DNA of 64,000 nt from Niveispirillum lacus (GTDB taxonomy: Bacteria; Pseudomonadota; Alphaproteobacteria; Azospirillales; Azospirillaceae): NCBI RefSeq assembly GCF_002251795.1, contig NZ_NOXU01000024.1, forward strand, positions 186,001-250,000. The letters run 5' to 3'. Shown here in pieces: positions 31,832 through 50,683 of the stretch; the stretch's first letter is position 1; every line of letters begins with the position of its first letter. The position numbers and the translations under genes are program-made. The notes under the pieces were generated by a model. That model was not told where the DNA came from. It saw only the letters and a program-made list of their open reading frames with translations, and searched no databases.

Positions 31832-32701
31832 TTAGCGCCGGGCCAGTAGATCCTGATGCCCCACCGTCAGACGCGCGCCCTTTTCGCTGGCCAGAAGCCG
31901 GCGGCGTTCAGCCCATGCCTGGATACGCGGTGCGCTGACAGGGTCCTGTTCAATGGCCGCCCTTTCGTAACCGCTGATCATGGCCAGATGGGCGGCAATC
32001 TGTTTCGGTCCGATCTTCCAGTCAGACTGTGCGGTCTCGACCTTGTAGCCTGCCCCGGTGAGGGCCGTGATCAGCGCCTGCGGTGCCACTGTCCCCAAGG
32101 CCGGGCCGCCCAGCCCCTTGGCCCGGTTCATATGGGCATGGAACAGGTCTAGCACCCACCCGTCATCCGGGTCGGACATGGAGAAATCGACCCGACCATC
32201 GACGGTCAGCGTGACCAGGACCGGGGGATACCCGCAATTGGTCAGTTCCTTCACAAACCGCTCCAGCCAAGTGAGCGATACCAGATCAAACAGCGCCTTG
32301 GCCGTCACCCCGTCATACTGGTCAAGACCAAGATCGGATGGGTCTTGGGCCAGATCGAAACTGCGCATCTCCACCCGTACGGCCATGTCGTCGCAGGTGA
32401 TCATATAGGCCCGGCGCTGTTCCTTATGTTCCCAGCCATTACGGTCAGCCCAGCGTCCGATCTCTCCCGGTGCCTTGGAAAGAAGCTTACGGTCCTTCTC
32501 GATCAGGGTCCAATCCTGAACCGGCCGGCCCAGCTTCATGGCCAGTTGACGGACATTGCTGCCAGTCCCCGCCCCCAGATCAATGATCATCGGCTGCGCG
32601 GGCAGCAACCGGCCAAAGGCCCAGGCCAACCCTACAGCCCGCGCCGCTTCGTCCAGTGGTTCACGCAGACGCAGCCAGTCGGCATCGAATTCCAGAGTCA
32701 T
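31832..32701 (-). CDS. Class I SAM methyltransferase, last gene of pterin-like operon
   Basis: A 289-residue methyltransferase with motif I MIIDLGAGTGSNVRQLAMKL (about residues 38-57) and an acidic residue after the second strand (WTLIEKDRKLL), typical of the SAM-binding fold. The rest is not from a recognised substrate class. It overlaps the glycosyltransferase stop by 4 bases and is the fourth and last gene of a unit with a dehydrogenase and a pterin-synthase-like protein. It is therefore inferred to methylate the product of that unit. Confidence 0.82.
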   Translation of the reverse strand: MTLEFDADWLRLREPLDEAARAVGLAWAFGRLLPAQPMIIDLGAGTGSNVRQLAMKLGRPVQDWTLIEKDRKLLSKAPGEIGRWADRNGWEHKEQRRAYMITCDDMAVRVEMRSFDLAQDPSDLGLDQYDGVTAKALFDLVSLTWLERFVKELTNCGYPPVLVTLTVDGRVDFSMSDPDDGWVLDLFHAHMNRAKGLGGPALGTVAPQALITALTGAGYKVETAQSDWKIGPKQIAAHLAMISGYERAAIEQDPVSAPRIQAWAERRRLLASEKGARLTVGHQDLLARR

Positions 32702-33783
32702 GCCCGTATCCGATCACTTTCCCCGGAAACTACCATGCCGGAGAGGGCGTTGCGTATCAACGACACAGAATGTTGCCATGTCGGCAACTGTTCACCCGCC
32801 TTCAATGCCGCTCGGCGGGCCGTTTCCAGGTTGGCAGGATCGGACAGCAGCCGGTCAAATGCTGTCGCCAGAGCATCGACGTCGCCTGGCGGAACAACGG
32901 CCCCGGCGGCGGGCGGCACCACCTCCGCCAATCCGCCGGCATCGGTGACAATACAGGGCAGGCCACGTTTCAACGCATCAGCCGCCACCATGCCATATCC
33001 TTCATGGTAACTGACCAGGGTGAACAGATCAGCGATCTGCCATTGCGCGTCCAGCGCGGGCCCCGACAATTCACCCATCAGGCGGACACGGTCAGATAAA
33101 CCATGTACCGATACAGCCTGAGCAATGGCGGCGGCCTGTCCAGGATGGCGGGCATCGCTGCCCACCAGATGCAGGCGCCAGGGCAGGTGTTTAAGGCGCG
33201 CCAACGCCTCTATCAGCACCAGATGCCCCTTGCGCGGGGTGAGGGTAGCCACACACAGGATGGTAGGGCCATTGCCCCCGTTCCCCCCTGTGGCCGGTTT
33301 GGCCGCGTCGGTGCCAGGATTGGCGATAGTGATACGGCCAGCCGGGACCGACAGGTCGATCACTCCCTGCATTGTGGTCCGTGATGGTACGATGACGTGG
33401 CACATATGGGCCAGGGCGTCGCGTTCGATACGAAACAGGGTGTCAGCCTGTTCCGGCGACAGACCATTTTCCAGATGCAGCGGATGATGTACCAGCGCGG
33501 CAAAGCGCAGCCGGTACCGGTCGACCCAGACGGCATGTGCCGCGACGGGCAGGGCCAAACCGTCGATCAGGACGCGGGCCCCATCCGGGATGGCGGCCAT
33601 CATCGCGTCGGCAGCATTACGGGATGGATCATCTACAAACGGATGCGGCCCCGGCAGTTCATGCAACTCGACCGTTTCGCCCAGTTTTCGTAGGCCGTCC
33701 ACGAGTTGGCGCAGATAGCCATAACCGCCGGTCAACTGGTTGATATCGCCGGGGCAGATAATATGCAGGCTCCGATCAGGCAT
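32698..33783 (-). CDS. Glycosyltransferase family 4 protein
   Basis: A 361-residue GT-B enzyme. The N-terminal domain has the GGYGYLRQLVDGLRKLG loop; the C-terminal domain has ILCVATLTPRKGHLVLIEAL, RLHLVGSDARHPG and the donor-binding LFTLVSYHEGYGMVAADALK, in which the second Glu of the usual E-x7-E is Asp. It transfers a sugar from an activated nucleotide; acceptor unknown. It overlaps both its neighbours in the operon (1 base with the pterin-synthase-like gene, 4 with the methyltransferase), so tight translational coupling is likely. Confidence 0.85.
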   Translation of the reverse strand: MPDRSLHIICPGDINQLTGGYGYLRQLVDGLRKLGETVELHELPGPHPFVDDPSRNAADAMMAAIPDGARVLIDGLALPVAAHAVWVDRYRLRFAALVHHPLHLENGLSPEQADTLFRIERDALAHMCHVIVPSRTTMQGVIDLSVPAGRITIANPGTDAAKPATGGNGGNGPTILCVATLTPRKGHLVLIEALARLKHLPWRLHLVGSDARHPGQAAAIAQAVSVHGLSDRVRLMGELSGPALDAQWQIADLFTLVSYHEGYGMVAADALKRGLPCIVTDAGGLAEVVPPAAGAVVPPGDVDALATAFDRLLSDPANLETARRAALKAGEQLPTWQHSVSLIRNALSGMVVSGESDRIRA

Positions 33784-34196
33784 CAGGCGCCGTCCCCGGT
33801 CAGTGGCGCCTCAAAGGCGCCCCAGGCCACATGGCTTTCTGACAAGGTGACACGCAGACTGTCCAGTGCCGGCCCGTCCGCCCCCAGAGCGCCGGCCCGG
33901 ATACCCGCCGCCAGCTTGCGATGGATGTCGCCTGCCAGGAATTCGGTGGTCGTGTTACGTCCGCGATATTCCGGAAGTTCATCCAGGTTCTTGTAATTCA
34001 GGGGCGCCAGCACCTGCTTCAGCAGCACCGATGCCGCCCCGATATCCACCACCAATCCCTCTGGCGATAACTGCCGCCGCCGGAATTCCGCATCGACCAC
34101 AAAGGTGGCGCCATGCAGCGCCTGGGCCGGGCCAAAAATGGCGCCGACAAAACTGTGCGCGATCATGATGTGCTCTCGCACCGACAGGAAATACAT
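33783..34196 (-). CDS. 6-pyruvoyl-tetrahydropterin-synthase-like protein, altered active site
   Basis: A 137-residue T-fold protein of the 6-PTPS/QueD family. The strand HIMIAHSF aligns with the AAH zinc ligand and LHGATFVVDAEF with the HGH pair, whose second His is Ala. Further along, GLVVDIGAASVLLKQVL and LSESHVAW match the family's substrate-binding strands (Glu kept). The catalytic Cys that precedes HGH is absent (GPAQALHGA), and the LDHxxLN catalytic His is replaced (LNYKNLDE). It is probably not a standard QueD or PTPS. It starts 12 bases after the dehydrogenase stop. Confidence 0.78.
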   Translation of the reverse strand: MYFLSVREHIMIAHSFVGAIFGPAQALHGATFVVDAEFRRRQLSPEGLVVDIGAASVLLKQVLAPLNYKNLDELPEYRGRNTTTEFLAGDIHRKLAAGIRAGALGADGPALDSLRVTLSESHVAWGAFEAPLTGDGA

Positions 34197-34208
34197 TGGG
34201 CGGACCTT

Positions 34209-35201
34209 TCAAGGAACGGAGCGCTGATAACGGACAATGGGGCAACCGAACGGCAGGCTGGACAGGTCGACCATTGCCTGCGGTAGATCAGCGAAATCGA
34301 TACGCGGCCCCAGCAGAAGGTCCAGCACCGGATCGGCCAACAGTGACAACGCTTTGTCTAGTCGGCGGGACAGGGTCCATCGTGGACGGAACGCCGGTGA
34401 CACCTTGCCTACCTGCGAAGAAATGATGCGCTGGCGGTTGGGATGAAACCCACCGCCCAGCGCCACGGTAACGGGCCGGTCGCCATACCAAGAGGCTTCC
34501 ACCACTATTGCCTCCATGCCTGCCAGACGCAGGGCTGTCTCCAACCCCTCGCCCGTGGCGCTGGCATGGATCACCAGATCGCACTCCAGAGCGTCGACCG
34601 TGTCTGGCGTGGCGAAACGGGCGCCAAAGGCATGGGCGATGGAGGCACGGGTCGGATCAATATCAACCATGGTCACATCGGCCCCGGGCATGCGGGCCGC
34701 CAGATAGGTGACCAGTCCACCGACCAGACCGCCGCCGACAATCGCAATATGTTGGCCCGGTGCCGCGCCGCCATCCCAAAGGATGTTCAAGGCCGTTTCC
34801 ATATTGGCGGCCAGGACGGCGCGTTCGGTAGGCACATTATCCGGTACAGGCCGGCAGCCCTCCACCGGGATCACCGCCACATTCTGATGTGGGTGCAGGG
34901 AAAAAACACGCCGACCAGCCAGATTGGCAGGGCCGTAATCGGCGATACCAACCAGGGCATATCCATATTTCACCGGCCCTGGAAAATCGCCATCCTGGAA
35001 TGGGCAGCGCATGATCGGGTAAAGGTCGGGCGGAACCCCACCCCGAAAGACCAAGGATTCGGTCCCCCGACTGATACCCGTGACTAAGGTGCGGACCAGC
35101 ACATCACCGGCCAGCGGTTCCGGCAGTTCCTGCTGACAAAGCGCCCCCTTGCCAGGGGCAAGGGTCCAGAAGGCAGTAGCACGGTCGGGCAGGAGCGGCA
35201 T
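34209..35201 (-). CDS. Medium-chain dehydrogenase, first gene of pterin-like operon
   Basis: A 330-residue MDR-type protein. The GroES-like N-terminus reads VRTLVTGISRGTESLVFRG, with Ser-Arg where zinc alcohol dehydrogenases have a catalytic Cys. The nucleotide-binding motif is IAIVGGGLVGGLVTYLAA, followed by VTMVDIDPTRA. Loss of the zinc ligand suggests a zinc-free reductase of the quinone-oxidoreductase kind. It is the first gene of a four-gene, same-strand operon with the PTPS-like, glycosyltransferase and methyltransferase genes. Confidence 0.82.
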   Translation of the reverse strand: MPLLPDRATAFWTLAPGKGALCQQELPEPLAGDVLVRTLVTGISRGTESLVFRGGVPPDLYPIMRCPFQDGDFPGPVKYGYALVGIADYGPANLAGRRVFSLHPHQNVAVIPVEGCRPVPDNVPTERAVLAANMETALNILWDGGAAPGQHIAIVGGGLVGGLVTYLAARMPGADVTMVDIDPTRASIAHAFGARFATPDTVDALECDLVIHASATGEGLETALRLAGMEAIVVEASWYGDRPVTVALGGGFHPNRQRIISSQVGKVSPAFRPRWTLSRRLDKALSLLADPVLDLLLGPRIDFADLPQAMVDLSSLPFGCPIVRYQRSVP

Positions 35202-39226: not shown

Positions 39227-40138
39227 ATGAACCAGACCAACGCACCGGCCAGCGACTTTGCCACCCGCGTCACCGACAGCGGCAAGACCGACACGGCCCT
39301 GCGCGGCGATTACCGCCATGTGCAGCCGGACTTCACCATCGACCAGGGCTGGGACGCCTATAGCAGCGCCGATCACGCCCTCTGGCGCACGCTGTATGAC
39401 CGGCAATCGGCACTATTGCCGCGCTATGCTGCCCGGGAATTCCTGGAAGGTCTGACCCGACTGGATGTGCGCGACGGCATTCCCGATTTCCGGCGCGCGT
39501 CGGACGTGCTGGACCGCGCCACCGGCTGGATACTGGTCGCCGTGCCGGGCCTGATCCCGGAGCGGGAATTTTTTGAACATCTGGCCGCCCGGCGGTTCCC
39601 GGTCACCAACTGGATCCGCAAGCCGGAAGAGATGGATTATCTCGTCGAACCCGACGTGTTTCATGATTTCTTCGGCCATGTGCCGTTGCTGACCCACCCG
39701 GTCTTCGCGGACTATCTGCAGGCCTATGGCATTGGTGGGGCCAAGGCCATCGCGCTCAACGGGCAGGAACATTTGGCCCGGCTTTACTGGTACATGGTCG
39801 AATTCGGCCTGATCAACACCAAGGATGGGTTGCGCGCCTATGGGGCTGGCATGCTGTCATCCCGTGGGGAGACGCAGTTCTGCATCGAAAGCCCCTCGCC
39901 CCACCGCATTGGATTCGATCTGGAGCGCGTGATGCGCACCCAGTACCGGATTGATGATTATCAGCAGACCTATTTCGTACTCGACAGCTATGAGCAGCTG
40001 ATGAACGCCACAGCAGTGGATTTCACCCCACTTTATGCCCGGCTGCGCAGCCTGCCGGCCATCGGCCCGACAGAGGTTCTGGCCAGCGACCGCGTGTTCA
40101 CCCTGGGCACCCAGGGCGAAAGCCACAAGGCGGCGTAA
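39227..40138 (+). CDS. phhA: Phenylalanine 4-monooxygenase
   Basis: A 303-residue iron- and pterin-dependent enzyme that hydroxylates phenylalanine to tyrosine. The iron-binding 2-His-1-Glu triad is clear: DVFHDFFGHVPLLTHPVF gives both His and ARLYWYMVEFGL gives the Glu. A strong ribosome-binding site (GGGGAGGAAGCC) precedes the ATG. It lies 147 bases after the Lrp-type regulator. A pterin cofactor is needed; pterin-related genes are nearby in the window, but no phhB is seen. Confidence 0.95.
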   Translation: MNQTNAPASDFATRVTDSGKTDTALRGDYRHVQPDFTIDQGWDAYSSADHALWRTLYDRQSALLPRYAAREFLEGLTRLDVRDGIPDFRRASDVLDRATGWILVAVPGLIPEREFFEHLAARRFPVTNWIRKPEEMDYLVEPDVFHDFFGHVPLLTHPVFADYLQAYGIGGAKAIALNGQEHLARLYWYMVEFGLINTKDGLRAYGAGMLSSRGETQFCIESPSPHRIGFDLERVMRTQYRIDDYQQTYFVLDSYEQLMNATAVDFTPLYARLRSLPAIGPTEVLASDRVFTLGTQGESHKAA

Positions 40139-46667: not shown

Positions 46668-47924
46668 TCAATGGACGGTGCTGGCACCATTGGCAGCGCC
46701 GCTGCGACCTTGCGCCTGATACTTGTCCATGACGCGGGTCATCATGTCAGCAATCAGTTCCTTGGGCAGCGGCGCCGGACCCCCTGGCGGCCAAGCAGCC
46801 TGCGGTTGTGATGCTGGCGCCATGCTGTTGGGCGCATCAGTGGCGGCGGGGGCGGGAACGACAGGTTCGGACGTGGTGGCACCCGCCGACGGCACCAGCG
46901 TCCGGTTAGCGGTCACCTGGGTGGGTATGGCGGCATCCGGCATGTTGGCACCAGCGGCCCGGACCATCTGATTGGCCCGCGACGGGATGACGGGTTTCAC
47001 CCCCATTGAACCGCTGGAAATAGCGGCAGCCCGGTATTCGGCCAACCCCTTACCGCCATTGGGATTTTTGGCCCGCTGCTGTTCCTGTTCCATGGCTGCC
47101 AGCAGATTGTCGCCGGCACCCGCGGCGCCAGGGGCCGGCAGGCTGGCCACGATGGCGGCCGGGCCCATGCCACGGGCCGCTGTCAGGGCGGCCGATGCAC
47201 CGGGGGTGGTTTCAAGGTCCTTCAGGTGCTGTGCGTTGGCGATGCCCCCCGCTACCGGTGCCTTGGCGCTGATGGATGTGGCGGTGGCGGCCATTGAGGG
47301 AGCCGTCGCGGTCGGTTTCGGGGCGGCAGGAACCGCCGTGCCGGTGGAAGCACTGGGCAAAGCCTGCCCACCACCCCCCATCAGGCTTTCCAGCAATGCC
47401 GCCTGCCCAGCGGAAAGATCGACCGGTTGACCGGGCTTGGTCGCGGCCGCAGCGGCCATGCTCGTACCCGGCACCACATCTGGGGCCATGTCGGTGTCGG
47501 CGCTGGCGGTACGCGCGGGACGGGGGGCGGTGACGGTGAAGGGGTCTTCCGCCGGGGCAGCAGCGGGACTGTCCTTTTTCAGGCCCAACAGGCTGGCCAC
47601 ATGGTCGGTGGCATCCTTGCCGGTTTCTTTCTCCAGGATGGCGTCGGCGCTGGCCACCGCCATACCGATAGGGCCAAAAAACAGGGCGGCGCCAGCCACC
47701 TTGGCCGGGGTGCGGATCGTATCGCCAGTGATGGCCTGGTAAATCTTGTTGACGCCGGGAATATGCTGCAACGGGTTCACCACATCCAGCACGTCCCAGA
47801 AAGACATGCCCTCGCCCTTCTCGACCTTGTCGCTCTCAGCACCGGATGGCTTCTCCACGGCGGTGTGGTGTGGCGACTGGGTCCTGGCACGGACATGGTC
47901 CATATGGATGGCACTTGGCGGCAT
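46668..47924 (-). CDS. Large Ala/Pro-rich hypothetical protein
   Basis: A 418-residue protein with no recognised domain. An N-terminal segment (FWDVLDVVNPLQHIPGVNKI, then GAALFFGPIGMAVASADAIL) might be amphipathic or membrane-associated; the rest is low-complexity Ala/Pro/Thr/Gly. A strong ribosome-binding site (GGGAGGAACGCC) precedes the ATG at 47924, so the open frame upstream is not used. The final helix (KELIADMMTRVMDKYQAQG) is well conserved in character. Function unknown. Confidence 0.65.
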   Translation of the reverse strand: MPPSAIHMDHVRARTQSPHHTAVEKPSGAESDKVEKGEGMSFWDVLDVVNPLQHIPGVNKIYQAITGDTIRTPAKVAGAALFFGPIGMAVASADAILEKETGKDATDHVASLLGLKKDSPAAAPAEDPFTVTAPRPARTASADTDMAPDVVPGTSMAAAAATKPGQPVDLSAGQAALLESLMGGGGQALPSASTGTAVPAAPKPTATAPSMAATATSISAKAPVAGGIANAQHLKDLETTPGASAALTAARGMGPAAIVASLPAPGAAGAGDNLLAAMEQEQQRAKNPNGGKGLAEYRAAAISSGSMGVKPVIPSRANQMVRAAGANMPDAAIPTQVTANRTLVPSAGATTSEPVVPAPAATDAPNSMAPASQPQAAWPPGGPAPLPKELIADMMTRVMDKYQAQGRSGAANGASTVH

Positions 47925-48006
47925 GGCGTTCCTCCCGGTTCGGGAAAAACAATGCAGGTCGTGTGCCAAGTGGAGGCGGCGCTTTTTGCCCAGTCCGGGC
48001 GGCGGC

Positions 48007-49173
48007 TCAGAACAGATGACCGGACTTTTCCGCCTTGGTGCGCAAATAGGCTTCGTTATGGCCATTGGCCGGGAAAATGTGGGGGACACGCTCCACCACG
48101 TCCACGCCAGACGCGGCCAGTTGCGCCATCTTGTCGGGATTGTTGGTCAGCAACCGCACTTGGGCATAGCCCATCTGGCGCAGCATGCTGGCAGCCGGCA
48201 GATAGACCCGTTCATCGGCATCAAAACCCAGAACCGTGTTGGCATCCACCGTATCCAGCCCACCATCTTGCAACCGGTAGGCTCGCAGCTTGTTCATCAG
48301 ACCGATACCACGCCCTTCCTGGGCCAGATACAGAACGATGCCGGCGCCCGCCGCTGCAATTTCCCGGATTGCGCCCCGCAACTGCGGGCCACAATCACAA
48401 CGCAGTGACCCCAGCAGATCGCCGGTGAAACATTCTGAATGCAACCGCGTCAGTACTGGCTGGCCCGCCGGCGGATCGCCGATGATGATGGCCAGATGTT
48501 CAGGCCCGCCATCACTGGGCCGAAAGGCCACAATACGGGTACGTTCCGCATCCTCCAACGGCACCGACGCCTCAGCGACGCGGGCCAAGCTGCGGGCGGA
48601 GCGGCGGCGGTAATCGATGATATCGACGGCGCGCACGCACAAAAGATCGTGGCGGCGGGCGAAACCCGCTCCATCGACCACACCCGCGCGTCCTAGCGGC
48701 AAGGGTGCCACCAGGGCAGCGGGCAGCAGACGGGCGATCTTGGCCAGGATGGTGGCCGCCCCTTCCGCCCCACCCGGCAGGGAGGTGGCCCCCATGCCCT
48801 GGCCGGCACGGGCCGGGCGGGTAGGATCAGAAAGGTCCCGGACAAGATCGGGCGTCAACCCCGCTGGTGGGGCGATACGCACAGGCCGGTCAACAGGTAC
48901 ATCCAGACCCAGGGCCCGGCCGCGCTGCCCCGTGACCACCAGGACAGGGGCATTGCCGGTCAGTTGTGCCAGATGGTTCATCGCCTGGGTGGTCACAGCC
49001 TCCGCGGCAAAGGCCAGCAGAGCGCCACCATCTTCCGCCGTGATGACCACAGCTTCCCCCCGACGCAAGTCAGACAGGGCACGGTCAACAGCGCGTTGGG
49101 CCGCGTTGTCCGGCGGGGTGGCGTGATCGGCAGAGGCGTATTCCAGAACCATGCTATCCATTATTCGATCCAC
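48007..49173 (-). CDS. ribA: GTP cyclohydrolase II with degenerate RibB-like N-domain
   Basis: A 388-residue protein. The C-terminal half (about 200-388) is a standard GTP cyclohydrolase II: VLTRLHSECFTGDLLGSLRC, CDCGPQLRGAIREI with the zinc cysteines, then QEGRGIGLMNKLRAY and LTNNPDKMAQLAASG. It opens GTP for riboflavin synthesis. The N-terminal half resembles DHBP synthase but its DREDE-type active-site motif is lost (RRGEAVVITAEDGGALLAF). Its stop side overlaps no gene; its start overlaps the CDP-alcohol transferase gene by 20 bases. Confidence 0.88.
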   Translation of the reverse strand: MDRIMDSMVLEYASADHATPPDNAAQRAVDRALSDLRRGEAVVITAEDGGALLAFAAEAVTTQAMNHLAQLTGNAPVLVVTGQRGRALGLDVPVDRPVRIAPPAGLTPDLVRDLSDPTRPARAGQGMGATSLPGGAEGAATILAKIARLLPAALVAPLPLGRAGVVDGAGFARRHDLLCVRAVDIIDYRRRSARSLARVAEASVPLEDAERTRIVAFRPSDGGPEHLAIIIGDPPAGQPVLTRLHSECFTGDLLGSLRCDCGPQLRGAIREIAAAGAGIVLYLAQEGRGIGLMNKLRAYRLQDGGLDTVDANTVLGFDADERVYLPAASMLRQMGYAQVRLLTNNPDKMAQLAASGVDVVERVPHIFPANGHNEAYLRTKAEKSGHLF

Positions 49174-49915
49174 CGGCGTCGCTGCGGTGGCTGATCAACC
49201 AAACCGTATCGGCGCTGAAAGAGAAAAGCAAAAGCCCAAGAGCTGCGCCCACCGCAAACCCGGTCAGCGGCGGCTCCAGAATGGGGGTGACGGCAATGGC
49301 CAGGACAGCCACCTGAACCATGCAACTGACCCGTCGGCGGCGACTGAAGGGCAGGGGATAGTTCAGCCAATGCCAGACCAGGCCCGCCGCCACGAACAGC
49401 GGGCGCAGCAGGGCCGCCAGCAGAACCCAAACCCCCACCTCCCCTGACAGCCAAAGCAGCAGGCAAAGATAAAGAATGGCGAGTGTGTCCATCTCCATAT
49501 CGAAGCGGGCACCATACGGGCTGGACAGGCCCTGACGCCGGGCCAGCCAACCATCCACCCCATCCAGGGCCAGCGCCGTGATGGCGATCACGGCCAAGGT
49601 CCAGGTCTGGCCCCTATCCAACGCCGGAGCGAAGGGGAGGGTTCCCCCGACCAGAGCCAGAAGGCCGGAACGCAGAAGGGTGACCCGGTTTGCATGCCCC
49701 CACCCTGGGCCCTGATGTGCTCCCAACCGTGTCAGGGCAAACCAAAGGGCTGGCAGGAACGCAACCAGCACCAACACGGGATAAGCCGATGGCAGATCAA
49801 TCCCCCGTCCCAACATCCAGCCCACCCCGGCCAACAGGGGCAGGGCCACCGCCAAGTGGGCGACGACCGACCGGCGCAGCGCCGGGGCAGGAAAGGGCGG
49901 AGATTGCATGACCAT
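49154..49915 (-). CDS. CDP-alcohol phosphatidyltransferase family protein
   Basis: About 253 residues with six or more membrane helices and the family signature ALDGVDGWLARRQGLSSPYG followed by ARFDMEMD (the D-x2-DG-x2-AR-x8-G-x3-D-x3-D motif). It attaches a polar group to a CDP-lipid headgroup. The chosen start at 49915 opens just before the first membrane segment. It overlaps ribA by 20 bases. The exact lipid product is unknown. Confidence 0.85.
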   Translation of the reverse strand: MVMQSPPFPAPALRRSVVAHLAVALPLLAGVGWMLGRGIDLPSAYPVLVLVAFLPALWFALTRLGAHQGPGWGHANRVTLLRSGLLALVGGTLPFAPALDRGQTWTLAVIAITALALDGVDGWLARRQGLSSPYGARFDMEMDTLAILYLCLLLWLSGEVGVWVLLAALLRPLFVAAGLVWHWLNYPLPFSRRRRVSCMVQVAVLAIAVTPILEPPLTGFAVGAALGLLLFSFSADTVWLISHRSDAGGSNNG

Positions 49916-50038
49916 GCCATTAAGGTTGGCCTGATCGGGGCGAAGGCAAGGGGAAAAGCATCTGGGAACGGGGGCTGGCCGGAAGGGCCCTGAACCCGTT
50001 ATGGTGCCCCGCGATCCCCACCCTGCTGGAACCGGGCC

Positions 50039-50683
50039 ATGACCACCGACTTTCCTAATCTGTTTGTCCTCGACCATCCGCTGATCCAGCACAAACTGTC
50101 CTGCATGCGCGATCGTGACCGGTCCACCATGGGTTTCCGGCAATTACTACGCGAGATTGCGCTACTGATGGGCTATGAGGTGACACGTGATTTGCCGTTG
50201 ACCACACAGCGGATTGAAACGCCGCTGTGCCCCATGGATGCGCCGGTGATCGAAGGCAAAAAACTGGCCGTCGTGCCGATCCTGCGCGCTGGCCTGGTGA
50301 TGGCAGAGGGGCTGCTGGAACTGGTCCCAGCCGCCAGGGAGGGGCATATCGGACTTTACCGTGACCATGAAACCAAACGGCCTGTGGAATATCTGGTAAA
50401 ATTGCCGGACGCGGCAGGTCGTCTCTTCATCCTGGTCGATCCGATGCTGGCCACTGGTCATTCAGCGGTCCACGCAGTCGATGTGCTGAACCGCCATGGC
50501 GTGGCCGATAGCCAGATCCGTTTTATGGCGTTGGTATCTGCACCGGAAGGTGTGCGCACCTTCCACGCCGCCCACCCGGATGTGCCGGTCTACACGGCGG
50601 CCCTCGACAGCCATCTGAACGAAAATGCCTATATCGTGCCCGGCCTGGGCGATGCGGGCGACCGGCTGTTTGGAACCAAATAG
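50039..50683 (+). CDS. upp: Uracil phosphoribosyltransferase
   Basis: A 214-residue salvage enzyme making UMP from uracil and PRPP. The PRPP-binding motif is [18 protein letters not shown] (about residues 131-148); [17 protein letters not shown] and [16 protein letters not shown] are further signatures. It is divergent from the CDP-alcohol transferase and convergent with fxsA, so it is a single-gene unit. Confidence 0.95.

Follow-up and report, generated by a model that had tools for sequence, protein, structure and literature searches.

Two groups of described enzymes come closest to the locus examined here, a four-gene operon in a 64,000-nucleotide stretch of the Niveispirillum lacus genome (contig NZ_NOXU01000024.1, positions 186,001 to 250,000; the whole stretch is called the window below). 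The first group comprises 6-pyruvoyltetrahydropterin synthase (PTPS) and QueD, COG0720 subfamilies I to III, whose T-fold, Pfam family (PF01242) and pterin-anchoring glutamate recur in one protein of the operon. That protein belongs to the same family as SCO6650 of Streptomyces coelicolor (PDB 3d7j), with 55% identity and a TM score of 0.92 for its AlphaFold2 model (pLDDT 94.3), and the profile of the whole family matches this structure at E=2e-60. SCO6650 is reported to contain no zinc, to be devoid of the catalytic triad and not to carry out the PTPS reaction. In passages of a 2016 review of COG0720, subfamilies I to III are described and a IV is mentioned, and the SCO6650 type is not described in them (PMC5041015). 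The second group covers the early steps of riboflavin synthesis, namely, RibA, the archaeal/fungal reductase of 2,5-diamino-6-ribosylamino-4(3H)-pyrimidinone 5'-phosphate (DARoPP) and BrbF, a creatininase-family enzyme that makes DARoPP from a formylated precursor (PMC9478397). Three recurrent partners of the operon match these families or superfamilies, the creatininase partner being compared with BrbF at the family level, whereas the cluster adds a family 4 glycosyltransferase (GT4), a methyltransferase, the PTPS-fold protein and an oxidoreductase of the medium-chain dehydrogenase/reductase (MDR) superfamily. The PTPS-fold family already has a solved structure, with a short structural paper, and the kind of pathway proposed below, pteridine or riboflavin precursor, is a known one. 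A search of the open-access literature, with subscription papers and preprints outside its scope, found no description of the cluster itself.

All four operon genes were found on the minus strand of the window:

34209..35201, minus strand: BchC-like oxidoreductase of the MDR superfamily, encoded first in the operon (NCBIfam BchC, 5.4e-12, below the cut-off)
33783..34196, minus strand: SCO6650-type protein with the PTPS fold (T-fold), without the canonical PTPS/QueD catalytic residues (PF01242, 2.5e-19)
32698..33783, minus strand: GT4-family glycosyltransferase (PF00534, 7.6e-29)
31832..32701, minus strand: class I S-adenosylmethionine (SAM)-dependent methyltransferase (Methyltransf_25; AlphaFold2 and Foldseek)

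The window letters bear out the spacings given in a preliminary description made from the sequence alone: 12 bases between the MDR and PTPS-fold genes, a 1-base overlap of the PTPS-fold and GT4 genes (TGATG) and a 4-base overlap of the GT4 and methyltransferase genes (ATGA). A promoter scan at the operon found no consensus site, and a terminator-like stem downstream of the last gene (31800-31785) is no better than expected by chance. Our analysis confirms that this four-gene operon is real and far more than a local curiosity. Furthermore, we think it rather probable that it forms the core of a dedicated, often membrane-associated route from GTP to a glycosylated and methylated compound of the pterin type.

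The first evidence is the conservation of the core. In an initial sample of 40 genomes (that of the window and 39 relatives), the PTPS-fold gene is present in 19, and 18 of the 19 loci read at length, window included, show all four genes in the same order; the irregularities are two contigs that end early, one inside the GT4 gene and one inside the MDR gene, and a further MDR gene that is split between two frames. Among 385 genomes of the class, the PTPS-fold profile matches 51, with 44 at 150 bits or more and the others below 30 bits. Named genome contigs hold at least 589 stretches with PTPS-fold relatives. The named loci are the best 80 of these and so lean towards close relatives; the record titles of these best 80 of 589 cover Alpha-, Beta- and Gammaproteobacteria, Gemmatimonadota, Acidobacteria, Planctomycetota and actinobacteria, that is, five phyla. 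The unbroken order MDR-PTPS-GT4-methyltransferase was found in 116 of 139 loci (135 of them distinct, as 4 are duplicates between sets) and MDR-PTPS-GT4 in 134. Since the same order recurs to this extent across phyla, chance adjacency of the four genes is ruled out, and they behave as the unit that the preliminary description had proposed. Regarding the 23 loci outside the strict order, the methyltransferase lies upstream of a gene of the MdoH-like family in 5, was not detected in 15 (some at contig edges, others with long flanks, one also with an inverted MDR gene), and in the remaining few the MDR gene is missing or the methyltransferase displaced. The pairwise distances of the four core proteins and of their partner RibD_C are also correlated (Mantel r 0.48-0.78 over 51-119 loci, with none of 500 permutations reaching each value).

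Three AT-rich alphaproteobacterial genomes (26-28% GC, 1.4-1.6 Mb; loci L103, L104 and L105) hold creatininase, MDR, PTPS-fold, GT4, methyltransferase, RibD_C and RibA genes together within about 6 kb, and we regard these seven genes as the minimal set. In Ca. Thiodictyon syntrophicum, a plasmid is annotated with MDR, PTPS, GT4, methyltransferase, cytochrome b, RibD-family and CDP-alcohol genes on one strand. The linkage is not absolute, since one PTPS-fold homologue, on a Streptomyces plasmid (NZ_CP109229.1), stands alone: the 18 kb scanned there with profiles gave no MDR, GT4, methyltransferase, RibD_C, RibA or CDP-alcohol match. The cluster was also seen in a metagenome-assembled record titled Bordetella parapertussis (L166), for which a binning or naming error is suspected. 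A scan of viral contigs with a single window protein, a query that reaches close relatives only, gave no relative among 10 pattern matches.

The second evidence is the set of recurrent partner genes. We counted it in the 102 loci whose flanks reach at least 5 kb on the upstream and 5.5 kb on the downstream side, where neighbour families were taken from simple open frames and mostly named by eye, with Pfam and NCBIfam run on representatives. The core is nearly complete in these loci (MDR and GT4 in 101 each, methyltransferase in 96), and the commonest single partner is a stand-alone RibD_C protein (72 loci). RibA, the type II GTP cyclohydrolase, follows in 51 and the creatininase family in 25; RibA or RibD_C is found in 82 loci, and both together with creatininase in 18. 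A second group consists of a CDP-alcohol phosphatidyltransferase (46 loci) and an MdoH-like family 2 glycosyltransferase (GT2; 35 loci), one or the other of which is present in 77 loci and neither in 25; as the two are rarely in the same locus (4 of 102), they behave as if they were alternatives. Less frequent are FkbM methyltransferases (25 loci), YceI (24), flippase-like LPG_synthase_TM proteins (20), cytochrome b561 (20) and sulfatase-like proteins (14). The YceI identity was confirmed by Pfam for one neighbour protein, and the b561 name is our own reading of a family in which NCBI names one such neighbour 'cytochrome b'. In locus L097 (5662-7122), a CDP-alcohol phosphatidyltransferase is fused with an FkbM methyltransferase domain, joining two partner families in one protein.

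Partner and core also co-occur at the genome level. With thresholds of 248 bits for the cluster-type RibD_C and 150 bits for the PTPS-fold family, 38 of the 385 class genomes have both, one (G149) has RibD_C alone and 6 (G000, G006, G086, G118, G252 and G254) have PTPS alone, giving a Fisher p=5e-45 that overstates the independence of the counts because the genomes are related. Genome G018 (locus L219), in 430 contigs, carries a cluster-type RibD_C (300 bits), and no PTPS-fold gene could be detected in it. In the initial sample of 40 genomes, the cluster-type CDP-alcohol enzyme (>200 bits) was found in 15 of 19 PTPS-positive genomes versus 0 of 21 PTPS-negative ones (p=1e-7).

Because RibA and creatininase genes co-occur with the core, the purine- or pterin-derived product that the preliminary description had suggested is now more plausible than before. 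From gene content and order, co-occurrence, family assignments and residue losses, we infer every substrate, the order of the steps and the product of the following route, which would lead to a 2-amino-4-oxo-pyrimidine or pteridine compound. RibA would open GTP to give DARoPP, and in some genomes the creatininase-family protein may act as a formamidase that feeds or helps DARoPP formation, by analogy with BrbF. Canonical DARoPP formation is the RibA reaction that we prefer, as the cluster proteins examined retain the tyrosine before the QEGRG-type stretch; the variant GTP cyclohydrolase II (GCH II) forming formamidopyrimidine (FAPy), said to have this tyrosine changed to methionine in a Streptomyces homologue, was set aside on the same residue. 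The stand-alone RibD_C would then reduce the ribosyl to a ribityl chain, presumably with the 2-amino group retained because the protein has no partner deaminase domain; the best solved relative of its profile is the DARoPP reductase 6p8c (8.6e-46), followed by 2azn. Subsequently, the conserved glutamate of the PTPS-fold protein would hold the pterin-like ring, and this protein would, together with the BchC-like MDR protein, perform or scaffold a ring or side-chain step unlike PTPS/QueD chemistry. Glycosylation by GT4 and methylation by the methyltransferase would follow. In many lineages the product may finally be attached to the membrane or moved across it, as suggested by the recurrence of CDP-alcohol or MdoH-like GT2, flippase-like and YceI/b561 proteins. 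A much more specific version, to which we give little credence, would be a membrane-anchored redox compound of a new class, that is, a glycosylated and methylated N-ribityl pterin derived from the GCH II product. The CDP-alcohol enzyme would link it to a lipid, the LPG_synthase_TM-type protein would flip it, and YceI and cytochrome b561 would serve it.

Several observations weigh against the proposed route. No more than half of the loci have RibA near the core and one in four has creatininase there, and 20 of the 102 loci have none of RibA, RibD_C and creatininase nearby. The window genome itself has no cluster-type or linked RibD_C and no creatininase match. The single RibD_C protein of L104 scores higher against eubacterial RibD models than against the archaeal DARoPP reductase (113 versus 82 bits, both below the cut-off), so the RibD_C substrate may be either DARoPP or its deaminated form. 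The methyltransferase may be dispensable or replaced in some loci, since some of those in which it was not detected have long flanks, and the role of the PTPS-fold protein might be to bind or scaffold and not to catalyse. Finally, the central theme could instead be a glycan or lipid pathway with the MdoH-like and CDP-alcohol enzymes.

The strongest competitor of the GTP-to-pterin route is a specialised second flavin module, in which RibA, RibD_C and creatininase would feed flavin synthesis and the core would make a flavin or lumazine modified by, for instance, glycosylation or methylation. The recurrence of these three partners (the creatininase family includes BrbF), the better RibD score of the L104 protein and a marginal RibB-like match at the N-terminus of the window RibA (PF00926, 26.6 versus 26.4 bits, profile positions 2-68 of 191) are all compatible with it. 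However, among the recurrent neighbours, inspected by eye and with Pfam for some families, we recognised neither a lumazine or riboflavin synthase nor a stand-alone RibB, and elsewhere the window genome encodes a further protein with a GCH II domain (C31) and a RibD-like frame of 375 aa (C22). Moreover, PTPS-fold proteins bind pterins and purines and are not known to bind flavins. We regard a flavin or lumazine product as possible but unlikely. An envelope glycan or glycolipid pathway, with MdoH-like GT2, GT4, CDP-alcohol, FkbM, sulfatase-type transferase and flippase steps and a non-pterin role for the PTPS-fold protein, would account for the MdoH-like, CDP-alcohol, FkbM, flippase-like and sulfatase-like genes counted above. 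Nevertheless, none of these partners is universal and RibD_C is more frequent than any of them; the three small AT-rich genomes show none of them next to the core, within 18 kb, and keep RibA, RibD_C and creatininase, which makes an envelope pathway still less likely than a flavin module.

It is important to consider what the PTPS-fold protein can and cannot do. Its place in the superfamily is clear (PF01242, 69.9 bits versus a cut-off of 22.4; Foldseek probability of 1.00 to PTPS and QueD structures), and its model superposes on Escherichia coli QueD with a TM score of about 0.7 at about 22% identity. The comparison relies on residue roles that we take to be the HGH zinc motif, a catalytic cysteine with an Asp-His pair and a pterin-anchoring glutamate. 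The second zinc histidine is kept in all 139 loci and the third is alanine in all of them, both compared strictly; at the first, an aligner gap paired QueD H20 instead of H16. No cysteine occurs at positions 15-31 in any of the 139, so the equivalent of the catalytic Cys27 is missing; the His71 column holds Tyr, Phe, Met or Leu throughout, and the Asp70 position is Asp in just 9. Unlike QueD and PTPS, therefore, the family is without equivalents of Cys27, His33 and His71 in all loci and of Asp70 in 130, while E120, the counterpart of E. coli QueD E110, is conserved in 139 of 139. The loss of the catalytic residues makes a known PTPS step very unlikely, and the kept glutamate makes a pterin-like ligand likely. 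Ordinary PTPS chemistry was accordingly rejected, which changes the preliminary description, where this protein supplies the ring-modifying step.

NCBI names relatives of the PTPS-fold protein '6-carboxytetrahydropterin synthase' and attaches a GO term for queuosine to them, a naming that the replaced zinc and catalytic residues render doubtful. That the protein is an ordinary QueD of the queuosine pathway with incidental neighbours would agree with this label and with its being the sole PF01242 protein found in the window genome, yet we rejected it as highly improbable, given the lost residues, the NCBIfam QueD score of 28.2 bits against a cut-off of 89.25, recurrent neighbours that include no recognised queuosine genes, and full-length QueC (>200 bits) in only 1 of the 19 PTPS-positive genomes, being missing in the other 18, the window's included. 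The best QueC match of the window genome equals the Pfam cut-off (22 bits) and spans 60 of 210 positions; short matches of this kind occur in many of the other genomes. The unit is widespread (at least 589 contig stretches for its key gene, small AT-rich genomes among its carriers), we found no product described for it, and databases give it the label of a queuosine enzyme. With a minimal set now named (RibA, RibD_C, PTPS-fold, MDR, GT4 and methyltransferase, often with creatininase), the product should be directly findable by isotope-labelled metabolomics, and finding it would also explain what SCO6650 does, whose structure was released in 2008.

For the window MDR protein, Pfam gives no match at 1e-3, and its best NCBIfam match, BchC (3-hydroxyethyl bacteriochlorophyllide dehydrogenase), is far below the cut-off (45.5 versus 291.25 bits); in addition, the MDR gene occurs in loci titled Streptomyces and Halomonas, which are not known as phototrophs. 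H103, E46 and H251 are kept in 134 of 134 aligned relatives, and no cysteine is conserved in more than 80% of these 134 proteins. NCBI calls the relatives 'zinc-binding alcohol dehydrogenase', but the protein does not qualify as a zinc-dependent alcohol dehydrogenase, and the label of reductase that it had received at first is at most tentative, the protein being BchC-like and having no conserved cysteine. The PDB relatives of GT4 include a GDP-mannose-dependent phosphatidylinositol-monomannoside mannosyltransferase and other GT4-type enzymes. The window methyltransferase, too, has no Pfam match at 1e-3; Methyltransf_25 was nonetheless matched by all 23 family members scanned, with E values of up to 1, the best being 6.7e-11 and that of the window copy 0.035, and the AlphaFold2 model of the window protein (pLDDT 94.7) leads Foldseek to SAM methyltransferases (best 3mgg, 9.6e-12).

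The preliminary description was right that the four genes form a unit, but this unit extends beyond them, with a part elsewhere in the same window, at 48-50 kb:

48007..49173, minus strand: RibA-type GTP cyclohydrolase II, 13 kb from the core (PF00925, 2.3e-58; TIGR00505 (ribA), 214.9 bits versus a cut-off of 205.85)
49154..50143, minus strand: CDP-alcohol phosphatidyltransferase of the cluster subtype (PF01066, 2.9e-14)
46668..48089, minus strand: uncharacterised gene beside RibA, membership uncertain (blastp homologues near RibA in relatives)

The window RibA is a member of the ribA family and keeps the GCH II cysteine motif, GDLLGSLRCDCG, and the LYLAQEGRG stretch. The CDP-alcohol frame was opened at the first TTG and overlaps the RibA gene, its true start being probably internal; the cluster profile A4 matches it with 286.8 bits at 49175-49891. 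It reads DGVDGWLARRQGLSSPYGARFDMEMD, in agreement with DG.DG..AR(8)G...D...D, which we take to be the family motif, and D125, D128, G129, R133, G142, D146 and D150 are invariant in the A4 alignment (22 rows). The RibA and CDP-alcohol pair adjoins the MDR gene in 4 of 10 same-genus loci (L025, L027, L028 and L029) and is not beside the core in the closest relatives (L020-L024) or in L026. The protein of the third gene has no match in a Pfam scan, carries an MSFWD.LDVVNPLQHIP stretch and matches by blastp open reading frames of L028, L027, L029, L031, L025 and others.

As for the missing RibD_C, the window genome has an unlinked second RibD_C protein of 236 aa (L213). Matches of this level (105-120 bits) were found in 13 of 18 PTPS-positive versus 0 of 6 PTPS-negative genomes of the family, and this co-occurrence with the PTPS-fold gene suggests that L213 may substitute for the cluster-type enzyme.

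Between 37346 and 40138, 2-5 kb from the operon, the window also encodes a 4-hydroxyphenylpyruvate dioxygenase, an Lrp-type regulator and a phenylalanine 4-monooxygenase, the last a pterin-dependent enzyme. That the operon makes the pterin cofactor of this phenylalanine hydroxylase (39227-40138; TIGR01267, 357.6 bits versus a cut-off of 264.75), 4 kb away, seems most improbable, as by eye the gene is not among the recurrent neighbours in relatives and, to our knowledge, bacterial pterin cofactors need neither a GT4 nor a methyltransferase. In S. coelicolor, gene numbering alone would place SCO6655, annotated as a GTP cyclohydrolase II, in the neighbourhood of SCO6650. SCO6655 stands on a published list of genes with expression anticorrelated to predicted flux, and most genes on that list rise in stationary phase (PMC2853524).

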